The notes beneath the pieces are model-generated. The model had not been told where the DNA came from and ran no database searches. It was given only the letters and a program-made list of their open reading frames with translations. 24,197 nt of DNA from a virus. Position numbers and translations under genes: made by a program. Below, one piece after another: positions 12,825-24,197 of the stretch (positions are counted from its first letter, which is position 1; each line of letters starts with the position of its first letter). The stretch lies in IMG/VR virus record IMGVR_UViG_3300018041_000061, positions 1-24,197 of that record, one strand, 5' to 3'.

Positions 12825-12834
12825 AATGTGTCTT

Positions 12835-12891
12835 TTAAGGTGAAAAAAGGTTTAATATTGTGCTTTTTATTACACTTGCCGTTTGCTTCAT
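12835..12891 (-). CDS. Possible 18-codon peptide gene
   Basis: ATG at 12889-12891 overlaps the TGA of the 60-aa gene (ATGA), as at other junctions here, and the frame runs 18 codons to TAA at 12835-12837 (MKQTASVIKSTILNLFSP). The coupling geometry is the only support; it may instead be spacer. Confidence 0.25.
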   Translation of the reverse strand: MKQTASVIKSTILNLFSP

Positions 12892-17015: not shown

Positions 17016-17243
17016 TTAAAAGTTGTAACATTCGACTACCTCAATGGTATTGTCTGATTTAACTTCTGCCCATTGCTGAACAAAACAACCACAGCAATCG
17101 TGTGGGCATCCGCAATGCGATCTATAGGTTAGTCTTTTTGCCTCTGATTCAAGTTCCTTTCTACTTACGTTTTTGTAAGTGTACAAGTACTTGATTGAGT
17201 CATTGTCATAGTCTAAATCCTCTTTTTTAATTGGTTGTAACAT
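17016..17243 (-). CDS. Cysteine-cluster small protein, 75 aa, downstream of hammerhead ribozyme A
   Basis: Not recognised. Residues about 43-53 contain HCGCPHDCCGC, five cysteines and two histidines in eleven residues, strongly suggesting a bound zinc ion or Fe-S type centre; flanks are charged. Its ATG (17241-17243) lies exactly 22 nt after the predicted cleavage site of ribozyme A, so its mRNA would begin with a 22-nt A/U-rich leader carrying a 5'-hydroxyl. Confidence 0.75.
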   Translation of the reverse strand: MLQPIKKEDLDYDNDSIKYLYTYKNVSRKELESEAKRLTYRSHCGCPHDCCGCFVQQWAEVKSDNTIEVVECYNF

Positions 17244-17259
17244 AATAATAATTTTAATT

Positions 17260-17315
17260 GGTTAAGACGTGAGCCTTAGCCCACGTTTCGGATACTCAAT
17301 CCTCATCAGTTAACC
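17260..17315 (-). ncRNA. Hammerhead self-cleaving ribozyme A (stem I open)
   Basis: Read leftward from 17315: stem I GGUUAA; core CUGAUGA; stem II GGAU/AUCC with loop UGAGU; core GAA; stem III ACGUGGGC/GCUCACGU (8 pairs, one G-U) with loop UAAG; cleavage nucleotide C (complement of 17266); stem I partner UUAACC. Every invariant core position is present and all three stems pair. Self-cleavage is expected between the complements of 17266 and 17265. The UGA stop of the gene ending at 17306 is inside the core. Type I topology. A stem I-loop II tertiary contact could not be identified. Confidence 0.93.
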
Positions 17316-17527
17316 TCTCGTAAGTAGTGTTGCCTAGTACCCTCGCCGCCTTTAGCCTCGTCATGTAAATAAGTCAGAGCCTCTGAGTATCTGCTCTGCA
17401 AATACTTCTGTATGTCTGACCATTCATACCCTTGGTCTAGCAGTTCGTCAATTACCGAGTAGAATGCTCTCGGTAGGTCTCTATGCGTAATTCGATCGAT
17501 ACGCTCGTTTCTTTCTTTCTTATCCAT
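17306..17527 (-). CDS. Hypothetical protein, 73 aa, ending inside ribozyme A
   Basis: Not recognised. Highly charged helical protein (KKERNERIDRITHRDLPRAF, then a Tyr/Glu-rich helix). The frame is open for 22 more codons upstream, but these lie in the preceding gene; ATG at 17525-17527 follows that gene by 2 bases. The last codons (GAG GTT AAC TGA) supply the first strand of stem I and the start of the ribozyme core, so the C-terminal sequence and the ribozyme constrain each other. Confidence 0.75.
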   Translation of the reverse strand: MDKKERNERIDRITHRDLPRAFYSVIDELLDQGYEWSDIQKYLQSRYSEALTYLHDEAKGGEGTRQHYLREVN

Positions 17528-17529
17528 AA

Positions 17530-17799
17530 TTATCTGTCGTAAAATTGGTCGTAAATGTCGTGTTTGCTTTGTTCTAATTCGTCTTCGTACCACTGATAAA
17601 ACTCATCAATGACGTCTTGGTATATCCAATCGTCGATTGAGTGTACTTTGTCAGATGATAAGTGCAAGTCCTCTACATCTTCGCAGTGTATCATTCCCGA
17701 TACCTCAAGCGTAATAACTCTGTTATCGCTCAGTTGATAATCCTCGTATGTTGCCCATACGTTGTAAAAGTTTCCGTCTTCGTGTTGAAATTCTATCAT
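17530..17799 (-). CDS. Very acidic hypothetical protein, 89 aa
   Basis: Not recognised. Rich in Asp, Glu and aromatic residues throughout (for example YQWYEDELEQSKHDIYDQFYDR at the end, shown in part), negative net charge, and no basic patch; this is the profile of phage DNA-mimic or inhibitor proteins, but that is only a resemblance. Its ATG overlaps the TGA of the 35-aa membrane protein. Confidence 0.75.
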   Translation of the reverse strand: MIEFQHEDGNFYNVWATYEDYQLSDNRVITLEVSGMIHCEDVEDLHLSSDKVHSIDDWIYQDVIDEFYQWYEDELEQSKHDIYDQFYDR

Positions 17800-17903
17800 T
17801 TCTTTGGTTTTTTAAGGTCTAACAATGCGACAACCCCACAAGTTGCCAAGAAAAACAAGGCTATGAATAAGCCCATGAATAGTTGAAATTGTCCGTGTGT
17901 CAT
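17796..17903 (-). CDS. 35-aa single-pass membrane protein
   Basis: Starts at ATG 17901-17903 (overlapping the upstream TGA) and ends in a TGA overlapping the next ATG. Residues about 8-29 (LFMGLFIALFFLATCGVVAL) form one transmembrane helix, followed by the basic tail DLKKPKK, which suggests an N-out, C-in orientation. Could be a holin-like or membrane-regulatory miniprotein; nothing else supports either. Confidence 0.7.
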   Translation of the reverse strand: MTHGQFQLFMGLFIALFFLATCGVVALLDLKKPKK

Positions 17904-18088
17904 GATATACCCAATATTTCGTCACGTTGCTCTTCAAGTGACATAACCTTGGTGTGTATGTCGTAAACTAGACCATTGTAATCTACCCAATCTTGGACGT
18001 CGCAATAAGCATCTAGGAATGCTGTTAATTTCTCAATCTTGTCTTCTAACTGATTGAGTTCTTGGTTTTTTTCTGCTGATAAATGCAT
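17900..18088 (-). CDS. Coiled-coil protein, 62 aa, downstream of ribozyme B
   Basis: Not recognised. Two helices with heptad spacing (NQELNQLEDKIEKLTAFL and VMSLEEQRDEIL) joined by a Trp/Tyr-rich turn, an antiparallel helical hairpin by appearance. Its ATG (18086-18088) is exactly 22 nt after the predicted cut of ribozyme B, in a leader nearly identical to that after ribozyme A. Its TGA overlaps the following ATG. Confidence 0.75.
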   Translation of the reverse strand: MHLSAEKNQELNQLEDKIEKLTAFLDAYCDVQDWVDYNGLVYDIHTKVMSLEEQRDEILGIS

Positions 18089-18104
18089 GATAATAAATTT
18101 AATT

Positions 18105-18156
18105 GGTTAAGACGCCCCGTAGGGCGTTTCGACTATTGAAGTCTCGTCAGTTAACC
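18105..18156 (-). ncRNA. Hammerhead self-cleaving ribozyme B (stem I open)
   Basis: Read leftward from 18156: stem I GGUUAA; core CUGACGA; stem II GACU/AGUC with loop UCAAU; core GAA; stem III ACGCCC/GGGCGU (6 perfect pairs) with the stable tetraloop UACG; cleavage nucleotide C (complement of 18111); stem I partner UUAACC. All invariant nucleotides are present. Compared with ribozyme A, stems II and III differ at many positions but each change is compensated, while stem I and the core are identical. The cut is expected between the complements of 18111 and 18110. Stem I begins at the last base of the upstream TAG stop. Confidence 0.93.
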
Positions 18157-18407
18157 TAGTCATCGCCTATGTTCAACTTCCCATCGGTATCAAACCATGG
18201 GTAATACTCGTCAGACGTTTCAGACGTCATGTCGTGGGTGTCATAGAATCCCGAATAGTCAGCCAACTTTAGGTCGTGACATACACAGATAATTTGCTCT
18301 TCGTCACCATAGATTGGGTGCTCATAAAACGTGATTCTTTGCTGCTTGTGGTTGGTCATTGAGTCTAACTCAAACGGGTTGTAACTCATTAATTTGTCGT
18401 AATTCAT
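18156..18407 (-). CDS. Hypothetical acidic protein, 83 aa
   Basis: Not recognised. ATG at 18405-18407 is preferred; the open frame continues 50 codons upstream but only as the shadow of the next gene. Sequence is rich in Asp, Tyr and His, with ICVCHDLKLADYSGFYDTHDM in the middle (two cysteines and two histidines). Ends LNIGDD with TAG, whose last base begins ribozyme B. Confidence 0.72.
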   Translation of the reverse strand: MNYDKLMSYNPFELDSMTNHKQQRITFYEHPIYGDEEQIICVCHDLKLADYSGFYDTHDMTSETSDEYYPWFDTDGKLNIGDD

Positions 18408-18693: not shown

Positions 18694-18748
18694 AATGGTT
18701 GGTCGGCAGTAAGGGTCGCGAGCCCAATCGCAGTCTGAGTGTCTGCCG

Positions 18749-18795
18749 ATGTTACGCCGTTGGTATGTAGTGTCCGTTACATGTTACGCTGTCGG
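18749..18795. repeat. Near-identical 15-bp direct repeat, three helical turns apart
   Basis: ATGTTACGCYGTYGG occurs at 18749-18763 and 18781-18795, start to start 32 bp, with two differences. Each begins with ATGTTA, the same hexamer seen in the iteron elements, where repeats 4 and 5 are also 32 bp apart. Probably a protein-binding pair on one face of the helix. Confidence 0.5.
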
Positions 18796-19672
18796 AGGGA
18801 CAGCACCAAGCGTAAGAATTTAGACCCCCTTCGCACCATGCATATACTACTTTTAATTTGTTAACTACGTCTTGCGTAGGTCTGAGGCGGTAAACCTCAT
18901 GCACACCTTGAAGGCTCGGGATTTCGATTTCTACATCATGGTCTTGCTTAGGTTCTCAGCCTACCATTTGGTGGTACAAGACTAGTAGGGCTTACACGTG
19001 GCCAATCCGTTGAGTCGGGGATGGTCGGTGGTAAGTATGTAACAGAACGATGAACAAATATTCAAAAACAGAATTGACATATCCTAATTTTGATGCGAAA
19101 AATATGCATTTTTTTTGCGATTTATTTAGTTGATTGCTCGTGAGTGAGTTGCAAGTTGTTGATATTCATTAACTTGAGTTACACTGACGTAGTTAAATTT
19201 TTTTTCTTGATGGGGGGCATGGGTTACACTCTGTCTTCTGACGTGTAAATCTTTCCTTTATCGATAAATGGAATAGCGTGTGCGTGTAAGTAATCCGGCC
19301 GACATATGCAAGTGTTCGGTTTATTTTATGACATTCAGATGACATTCACAGTCGAAACCGCTCTTCTGGGTGAGATAAACCATGTACAAAATCCATGTAA
19401 TACTTTCTCTTGTATCGTAGTTAAGCGATAGAGTTGCACACCTTTATTGTTTATTTCCGATGAAGCATGTTGTTGCGTAGTTCATCGGCAGATAGCGATA
19501 GAGATAGCGGAGTTTATCGATGTTATCCGATTAAGCACACCAAAAAAGTCAAAATATCTGCATGAAAATTTCCATTTTGACACCCCCCCTATCGAATTTA
19601 AATCGGTTTTCGTATCGGGCCGGCTGCTGTAATTTGTATATATAACCCAAATACTACTCATTTCTGACGTAA

Positions 19673-19835
19673 ATATGTTGAATTATGTTGAAATATGTTA
19701 AAGTAATGTTGTGCGGATTGGCGTAAACATTGGATTTATGTTGATATGTTATAAAAAGCTTCCGTGTACGTAAGGAGTTATTTTTTGAAAACTTACGTTA
19801 CGTAGAGAGTAAGGAAACGTCATTTTGGAGCAATC
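19673..19835. repeat. Iteron-type control element, copy 2
   Basis: Six ATGTT(G/A) hexamers begin at 19675, 19685, 19695, 19706, 19738 and 19746, the same spacing (10, 10, 11, 32, 8) as copy 1. TAAGGAGTT (19771), GTTACGTA (19797), AGAGTAAGG and CATTTTG follow at identical offsets. A 7-bp hairpin ACGTAAG/CTTACGT (19768-19798) is specific to this copy. Both copies point the same way on the top strand although one precedes a leftward gene and the other a rightward one. That suggests both serve leftward units or act as DNA sites (origin, operator) independent of the adjacent gene. Confidence 0.75.
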
Positions 19836-19854
19836 CTACATAATTGAAATGGTT

Positions 19855-19862
19855 TAACTTTG
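19855..19862 (+). promoter_or_regulatory. -7 box of the amidase gene
   Basis: TAACTTTG matches TAnnTTTG and stands 4 nt before the ATG at 19867, so transcription should begin at or next to the start codon. No clear -33 TTG; the preceding iteron element may supply activation instead. Confidence 0.6.
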
Positions 19863-19866
19863 CGGT

Positions 19867-22709: not shown

Positions 22710-24197
22710 ATGATTGTAAAAAACATTGAATTCAACAGGGAGAAACTGTTGGTAGGGCTAGCAAAGCTCAACGATGCGGTAAGCAGCACCATGGGACCGA
22801 TGGGTCGAACGGTGTTAATGGAGTCAGAGAACCATATTGGTGGCGTAACGGTAACAAAAGACGGCGTCACGGTAGCTAGGGGCATTACATTAGAAGATCC
22901 AATTGAGAATTTAGCGGTAACACTGATGAAGCAGGCGGCTGACAGAACGGCTACGGTTGCTGGAGACGGTACGACCACGTCAATTGTGCTGACACATGCC
23001 ATTATTGACATGTTTATCGCCCTTGGAATACAGCCTACTGCGTATAACCTAAGAAAAATCAAGGAAGACGCCGAGTATGTGATTGACAAAATCAAGGAGA
23101 TGGCTATTCCTGTGACAGACGAGACCTTATTAGACGTAGCCACTATATCGGCAAATAGCGATAAAGAGATTGGTGAGTTAGTACACGACGTATACACTAA
23201 GGTAGGTCGAGACGGAGTGGTAACGGTAGAGCGTTCAAATACCAGCAAGACATACAGCGAGATGTCTAATGGTATGCGTATCAGTCGTGGATGGCAGAGT
23301 CCGTACTACATCACAGACCAAAAGAAGCGAGAGGCTATACTAGACAACCCATACGTATTGGTTACGGACAGAGAGATTCAGAGCTTACAGAGCATTGAGC
23401 ACATACTTGGTCCAGTATTAAGAGACGGCAAGAGCGTATTAATTATTGGCGAGATGAACATGCAGGCGACGAATGCGTTGAACATGAACGTAGCCAAGGG
23501 TACGATTAAGGCGGCTAATATACTGCCACCACAGTTTGGTTACAAGAGAAAACAATTGATGCAAGACATTGCTGCCGCTACGGGTGCTAAGTATATTAGT
23601 GACGACGTGGGTGATGACTTTGGATTGATTAACATTGCTGACCTTGGGCGTGTTGACAAGGCGATTGTGGGTAAGGACTCTACGATTTTGGTCAGAGAGG
23701 ACGACGCACTAGCCAAGGAGCGTATCGAGGCGGTACGAGAGATGGAGGTAGAGGACGAGCAAGACAAGAAGTTCCAGGAGGAGCGTATTGCTACGTTGAA
23801 CGGAAGCGTGGCTGTGATATACGTTGGGGCCAATACAGACATCGAGCAAAAAGAAAAATTCGACCGCGTTGATGACGCGGTGTGTGCAACGAAGGCCGCG
23901 ATAGAGGAGGGCATATTACCTGGTGGTGGATATGCGCTGCTGAAAATAAGTGAGAGTATGGACGAGAAGAATGTAATGACGGCTGCTATAACGGCGCCGT
24001 TTTATATGATCCTTGAGAACGCTGGCTTTGACATGGACCTAATCGAGGACGTGTGTAAGAGGTTTGATGAGGATGGAGTAGGATTCAATCCGGTGACTGA
24101 AGATTTTGTTGATATGGTAGTACAAGGCATTGTGGACCCGGCCAAGGTTACACGCTGTGCTATTGAGAATGCCGTGAGTGTCGCAACGACAATTTTA
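22710..24197 (+). CDS. groL: GroEL-type chaperonin, first 496 codons (3' end outside window)
   Basis: Group I chaperonin subunit that folds proteins in a double ring. The equatorial nucleotide site is intact: MGPMGRTVLM, TKDGVTVA (D51, equivalent to E. coli D52), GDGTTTS (85-91), and RVDDAVCATKAAIEEGILPGGGYALL with the catalytic aspartate. The apical domain keeps QSPYYIT and IIGEMNMQATNAL...MNVAKGT, equivalents of the substrate-binding helices, with substitutions (for example NMNVAKG where E. coli has VVNTMRG). The sequence reaches the segment equivalent to about residue 512 of 548 in E. coli. No groES is in the window, so it may use a host or elsewhere-encoded cofactor. Own promoter at 22684. 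Confidence 0.95.
   Translation, partial: MIVKNIEFNREKLLVGLAKLNDAVSSTMGPMGRTVLMESENHIGGVTVTKDGVTVARGITLEDPIENLAVTLMKQAADRTATVAGDGTTTSIVLTHAIIDMFIALGIQPTAYNLRKIKEDAEYVIDKIKEMAIPVTDETLLDVATISANSDKEIGELVHDVYTKVGRDGVVTVERSNTSKTYSEMSNGMRISRGWQSPYYITDQKKREAILDNPYVLVTDREIQSLQSIEHILGPVLRDGKSVLIIGEMNMQATNALNMNVAKGTIKAANILPPQFGYKRKQLMQDIAAATGAKYISDDVGDDFGLINIADLGRVDKAIVGKDSTILVREDDALAKERIEAVREMEVEDEQDKKFQEERIATLNGSVAVIYVGANTDIEQKEKFDRVDDAVCATKAAIEEGILPGGGYALLKISESMDEKNVMTAAITAPFYMILENAGFDMDLIEDVCKRFDEDGVGFNPVTEDFVDMVVQGIVDPAKVTRCAIENAVSVATTIL

Follow-up and report, generated by a model that had tools for sequence, protein, structure and literature searches.

Two minus-strand segments of the window, a 24,197-bp stretch that makes up a whole IMG/VR virus record, read as complete type I hammerhead ribozymes for which cleavage is predicted: complement(17260-17315) and complement(18105-18156), hereafter copies 1 and 2. 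We consider it probable (about 0.8) that they are junction-type phage type I hammerheads that cut the operon mRNA into units with defined ends. The layout, covariation, recurrence, position and spacing of these ribozymes are direct observations. The sequence-only reading of the window had already proposed that both motifs cut the polycistronic message; its overall interpretation is supported in part and proved too narrow.

Hammerhead motifs in a phage operon

The leftward operon of the window is composed of many small genes followed by those for a protein with a BT4734-like N-terminal domain, a helicase and a class II ribonucleotide reductase, and the rightward side encodes an amidase, PhoH and a Cpn60-type chaperonin. 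The chaperonin gene (GroEL-type, 22710-24197) adjoins the PhoH gene, and its best-listed phage matches are less than 45% identical; several of the best come from Flavobacterium and Bacteroides phages. Window start codons mostly follow A/T-rich leaders without Shine-Dalgarno signals, and these leaders together with the chaperonin matches indicate that the host is probably a member of the Bacteroidota. The divergent gene sets are separated by ~1.2 kb (18694-19866) that holds only short ORFs of 61 aa or less and is likely a promoter or origin region. A distant DNA search of INPHARED with the window locus returned no match.

Copy 1 (17260..17315, minus strand), assigned as a type I hammerhead from its sequence, its minimum free energy (MFE) fold and model R2, reads GGUUAA-CUGAUGA-GGAU-UGAGU-AUCC-GAA-ACGUGGGC-UAAG-GCUCACGU-C-UUAACC from 17315 to 17260 on the minus strand. 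Stem I pairs 17310-17315 with 17260-17265 (GGUUAA/UUAACC), the core CUGAUGA occupies 17303-17309, stem II pairs 17299-17302 with 17290-17293 (GGAU/AUCC, loop UGAGU), GAA lies at 17287-17289, and stem III forms eight pairs between 17279-17286 and 17267-17274; C17 is at 17266, with the cut predicted between 17266 and 17265. Copy 2 (18105..18156, minus strand; type I with stem I open, on the same three grounds) reads GGUUAA-CUGACGA-GACU-UCAAU-AGUC-GAA-ACGCCC-UACG-GGGCGU-C-UUAACC from 18156 to 18105. Its stem I pairs 18151-18156 with 18105-18110 (GGUUAA/UUAACC), the core CUGACGA is at 18144-18150, stem II pairs 18140-18143 with 18131-18134 (GACU/AGUC, loop UCAAU), GAA is at 18128-18130, stem III forms six pairs between 18122-18127 and 18112-18117, and the cut is predicted between C17 (18111) and 18110. 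Both copies contain, in order, the elements of the hammerhead class (CUGANGA, GAA, the A15.1-U16.1 pair and H17), and in both stem I is open-ended while loops close stems II and III, as in type I. The coordinates, cores, C17 and eight versus six stem III pairs given by the sequence-only reading for two complete hammerheads all held up, as did its placement of hammerheads within a phage operon of small genes.

As isolated segments, both copies reach their MFE in the precise secondary structure of a hammerhead (copy 1, −18.1 kcal/mol, z −2.6; copy 2, −17.5 kcal/mol, z −3.0). With 20–30 nt of flanking sequence copy 1 keeps the hammerhead fold, and the MFE structure of copy 2 opens stem I. Model R2, whose training set includes both copies, scores them at 67.1 bits (E 1.3e-14) and 73.9 bits (E 2.4e-16), respectively. 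A terminator reading of the two motifs was rejected, as there is no terminator-like site at either.

Each motif fills a gap between two leftward genes. The 82-aa gene upstream of copy 2 (PHROG 11770; 18156..18404, minus) ends in a UAG stop (18158-18156) whose final G also belongs to stem I of the ribozyme, and the gene downstream encodes 62 aa with no confident family (17900..18088, minus). At copy 1, the 72-aa upstream gene (no family; 17306..17524, minus) terminates in a UGA (17308-17306) that is the UGA within the CUGA core, and the downstream gene encodes 75 aa with a weak PHROG 20892 match (17016..17243, minus). The distance from predicted cut to AUG is exactly 22 nt for both, giving the predicted leaders UUAACCAAUUAAAUUUAUUAUC after copy 2 (18089..18110, minus, directly before the AUG at 18088) and UUAACCAAUUAAAAUUAUUAUU after copy 1 (17244..17265, minus, directly before the AUG at 17243). 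The copies are ~845 nt apart and flank the genes between 17306 and 18088. Gaps in the leftward operon are mostly ~30 nt or less, or are overlaps; apart from one of 63 nt (12825-12887), none is as large as those at the ribozymes (62 and 67 nt). Since only two of ~23 junctions in the operon carry a ribozyme, processing of the message would be partial.

Homologues of the gene upstream of copy 2 were found at two other loci. In one, at 58% identity (locus L260), a ribozyme occupies the same 3' junction and a second lies directly before the gene's own start codon; the other, at 54% (locus L261), has no ribozyme at the equivalent junction. The junction element has thus been kept across considerable divergence in L260 and lost or replaced in L261, where its absence indicates that it is dispensable. 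Both junctions of the L261 homologue instead carry a repeated leader, approximately AAATAAAATCCTAGAAATAGGTGTAAAA before ATG (L261:2440-2500 and 2740-2780), which includes a small CCTA-GAAA-TAGG hairpin and may serve as a different kind of junction element. A search for relatives of both genes flanking copy 1 found none.

Relatives, covariation and stem architecture

When IMG/VR was scanned for exact matches to a pattern that kept stem I and the core of the window copies but left stems II and III free, at least 119 stretches matched; with two core bases swapped, the pattern matched none in the whole viral collection. A narrower sub-pattern matched 15 stretches in the full collection, 3 of them among the 119 matches listed, from which a rough extrapolation, subject to large Poisson error, puts this stem I class at ~600 stretches. 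A second IMG/VR scan, with stem I free and U after GUC excluded, matched at least 120 stretches. Within 2.24 Mb of fetched sequence, a structural descriptor requiring all three stems gave 402 matches (361 distinct).

Chance resemblance is a concern for any short window, and the bare core pattern, with no stems required, does occur six times here against 1.8 expected; it was rejected as evidence for ribozymes because it is too weak. Six scrambled cores gave no match in the same 2.24 Mb once three stems were required, and this excludes chance as an explanation we could credit. The scrambled cores also bear on a structured RNA serving translational control, protein binding or 3'-end stabilization, in which the hammerhead resemblance would be incidental. 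The site between stop and start codons would suit such an RNA, and its stems could shield a 3' end; a hairpin function, however, needs no catalytic core, and the invariant unpaired positions are exactly the catalytic core, which makes this explanation highly improbable.

The sequence-only reading took the differences between the two window copies as strong evidence for selection on RNA structure. Two copies alone are thin evidence for this, and the case instead comes from 92 and 109 related copies. In alignment A1, composed of 92 copies collected by sequence pattern with stems II and III not required, pairing holds in 97% of stem II cells and 99% of stem III cells, and the variable pairs are of several types; overall, 98.9% of cells are paired. 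The covariation score of 0.528 compares with 0.106 for shuffles and at most 0.085 for slid structures. Alignment A2 (109 copies with both kinds of stem I) shows two-sided changes at all six stem I pairs, its 100% pairing being partly by construction because its members were selected by the stem descriptor. The fair tests are A1 for stems II and III and, for stem I, a set of 141 copies chosen without use of stem I, with stem III set first. Positions 1–6 of stem I pair in 97–99% of these 141 copies, among which 60 distinct stem I sequences occur; pairing is never seen at position 7 and is at chance level at positions 8–9. In the shuffled control of the same copies the five inner positions pair in 43–54%. 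Compensating change is seen even between near-identical phages: the cultured elemo Flavobacterium phages carry two ribozyme versions that differ on both sides of two stem II pairs and are otherwise near-identical. All three stems covary strongly, so that three helices around the core are backed by covariation, and selection on the hammerhead structure is supported.

The relatives share a narrow anatomy. Stem I is exactly 6 bp in 342/361 distinct copies, almost always with G-C closure, and is flanked by A on both sides (95–99% and 95–97% of the 361). In 138 of the 141 copies chosen independently of stem I, pairing ends at exactly 6 bp with A opposite A. Stem I therefore stops after six pairs, A facing A and with no outer helix, and neither a bulge nor an outer helix of the classic kind is present. 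Variants of the UUAA class show concerted changes in the outer pairs, for example GGUUAA/UUAACC, GAUUAA/UUAAUC and AGUUAA/UUAACU. Loop II conforms to U-N-A-N-U (U 96–100%, A 93–95%, U 90–96% of the 361 copies), and H17 is C in 334/361 and A in 27/361. Hammerheads are fast at low Mg when loop II makes a tertiary contact with a loop or bulge of stem I. The constant stem I length, A...A flanks and loop II of these relatives would be consistent with a tertiary contact taking the place of the usual stem I bulge.

The lack of a match above the Rfam threshold, which the sequence-only reading had named as refuting it, did occur but proved a poor test of these elements. At the gathering threshold neither window copy matched a hammerhead model. 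In E-value mode, copy 2 aligned end to end with RF00163 (Hammerhead_1) at 25.5 bits, below the gathering cut-off of 34 bits, and weakly with RF03152 (RAGATH-1) at 22.4 bits, under the cut-off of 56.3 bits; copy 1 was absent from the matches at E ≤ 10. The lack of a match reflects the threshold of Rfam rather than the RNA, as the subfamily scores ~25–30 bits against a required 34. Across 34 loci, only one of ~100 descriptor copies passes the RF00163 gathering score, and at nine loci only 5 of 31 copies reach this model at E ≤ 1. Copies in cultured phages are likewise missed. Standard annotation thus under-counts these phage ribozymes, nearly all of which escape the Rfam type I model. One ribozyme-bearing phage contig carries a DUF805b cis-regulatory RNA above the Rfam cut-off on its minus strand (L063:250-282).

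The cultured carriers are elemo phages of Flavobacterium sp. BAL314 and Pelagibacter phages. The Pelagibacter phage copies (L131:2652-2726, L133:2991-3063 and L134:2942-3014) have the same ribozyme with a GUA cleavage triplet and lie near MarR and integrase genes, with the annotated start codon farther away than usual. In the elemo phages, the ribozyme is covered by an annotated antisense ORF (L262:567-674 in MT497017.1, for example QLF85237.1; L132:3962-4069), which is probably a gene-caller artefact. A further copy (L129:4223-4289) has CCGA in place of CUGA with all stems intact and may be an inactive or altered ribozyme. The GUUAAC class is rare in bacterial genomes (genome_contigs), with four stretches of which one, from Fructobacillus (L130), is a false match that scores only 23 bits and lacks the stems. 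A plasmid search with one probe gave no match.

Position and spacing at gene junctions

The ribozymes occupy a fixed place between genes. An ORF with its AUG 15–35 nt past the predicted cut follows 77.6% of judgeable copies, compared with 13.1% of random positions on the same strands, and the distance from predicted cut to AUG has a median of 24 nt with quartiles of 22 and 28. Upstream reading frames mostly end in or against the ribozyme, their stop codons clustering at −3, −2, +3, +7 and +17 from its 5' end. In copies of the UUAA class the leader rarely has a Shine-Dalgarno-like core (19/171), whereas 103/159 copies with a different stem I have one; the device thus accompanies translation starts of both kinds. 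The proteins encoded downstream are short (median 79 aa) and not related to one another, 317 ORFs falling into 251 clusters with no dominant PHROG. The idea of one conserved downstream gene was rejected on this basis, and the element therefore serves the junction rather than a particular gene.

The absence of a common downstream gene could also be read in favor of weak ribozymes or hammerhead-like relics of no functional importance, spread by recombination at junctions as selfish or passenger DNA. Ribozymes are found at only some junctions and are missing from the equivalent junction in L261, and the core is changed in some copies, as with CCGA in L129. Relics would, however, be expected to decay, and the near-perfect conservation of core and stems, together with extensive compensatory change even between near-identical cultured phages, makes this explanation unlikely.

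Whole records carry one to seven copies, and many have one. At 80 fetched loci with at least two copies, all copies lie on one strand (80/80), with a median spacing of 513 nt. Two copies per operon, regarded as unusual in the sequence-only reading, are thus common among these relatives, and a 2011 paper had already described clustered hammerheads in phages (PMC3088659). The window and its multi-copy relatives have the arrangement of such clusters, with two or more neighboring hammerheads that flank phage genes (Perreault 2011).

Tandem, same-strand copies ~513 nt apart would also be suited to ligation, in which active ribozymes would serve mainly to let the piece between two hammerheads, released with 5'-hydroxyl and 2',3'-cyclic phosphate ends, rejoin through the ribozyme or a host ligase such as RtcB into a circular or spliced mRNA. 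The window copies have a common stem I, which might let one product base-pair through its 5' end with the next 3' ribozyme. If circle formation were selected, within-genome identity of stem I should exceed that of stems II and III. Outside the UUAA class, within-locus identity is instead 22.6% for stem I versus 31.3% and 25.2% for stems II and III, so a common stem I is not supported as a sign of circular RNA formation outside that class. The many records with a single copy also argue against ligation, and Perreault et al. sought such products and detected none (PMC3088659). We regard a main role in ligation as improbable.

Proposed role and relation to known hammerheads

Hammerhead self-cleavage occurs 3' of nucleotide 17 and leaves a 2',3'-cyclic phosphate on the upstream product and a 5'-hydroxyl on the downstream product. 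From this established chemistry, each ribozyme is predicted to fold as the leftward operon is transcribed and to cut its own transcript after C17. The upstream mRNA would then end in the structured ribozyme body with a 2',3'-cyclic phosphate, and the downstream mRNA would begin with a 5'-hydroxyl and a 22-nt leader holding the translation start region. In this way, the polycistronic message would be broken up into pieces that each carry one gene or a few and have defined ends. The most likely role of the junction hammerheads is therefore to split polycistronic phage mRNA into gene-length pieces with short 5'-hydroxyl leaders, and splitting might in turn alter the stability or translation of each piece. 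Going further, and only tentatively, we suggest that self-cleaving ribozymes could be a standard and widespread mRNA-maturation device of dsDNA phages: a cassette of ~50 nt that fits after a stop codon and ahead of the following ribosome-binding region, is used in hosts with or without Shine-Dalgarno initiation, and leaves each downstream mRNA with a short leader whose 5'-hydroxyl may escape recognition by host 5'-end-dependent RNA decay.

What bacterial and phage hammerheads do biologically has yet to be settled (PMC6155905). A subfamily whose architecture and placement relative to stop and start codons are constant, and for which cultured hosts exist, makes this question directly accessible to experiment.

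The principle of message processing by phage hammerheads is already known from Perreault et al. (PMC3088659). Clustered prophage hammerheads flank single genes or short blocks of varying identity, and message processing was proposed for them; three arrays cleave in vitro, and the A. tumefaciens array also cleaves in E. coli (PMC3088659). The window resembles these clusters in having several hammerheads close together flanking genes. The published clusters, however, are of types I, II or III, many lie near integrases in bacterial genomes and many have a pseudoknot (PMC3088659), whereas the window subfamily is uniformly type I, with a 6-bp stem I, A...A flanks and a location in the stop-to-start gap. 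The HHphage ribozyme of haloviruses HF1 and HF2 is positioned 13 nt before a start codon, and a mapped mRNA 5' end lies 3 nt or less from its cut site (PMC3088659). It is like the window copies in preceding a start codon closely within an operon of a lytic dsDNA virus, but its core has insertions near C3 where the window copies have the standard core, and a single HHphage heads its operon whereas the phage subfamily places several ribozymes at internal junctions. Among the Rfam models, RF00163 has the same topology and core as the window copies, which score below its gathering cut-off, and the extra upstream hairpin of RF03152 was not noticed, in an informal look, as a constant feature of the phage subfamily. 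The literature searched described no junction subfamily that is uniformly of type I, has a 6-bp stem I between A...A flanks, is this abundant in phage contigs and is nearly missing from Rfam annotation; Dataset S1 of PMC3088659 may contain some members. Relative to these systems, the apparent novelty lies in the standardized junction subfamily itself, in how abundant it is in phage contigs and in how little of it Rfam annotates.
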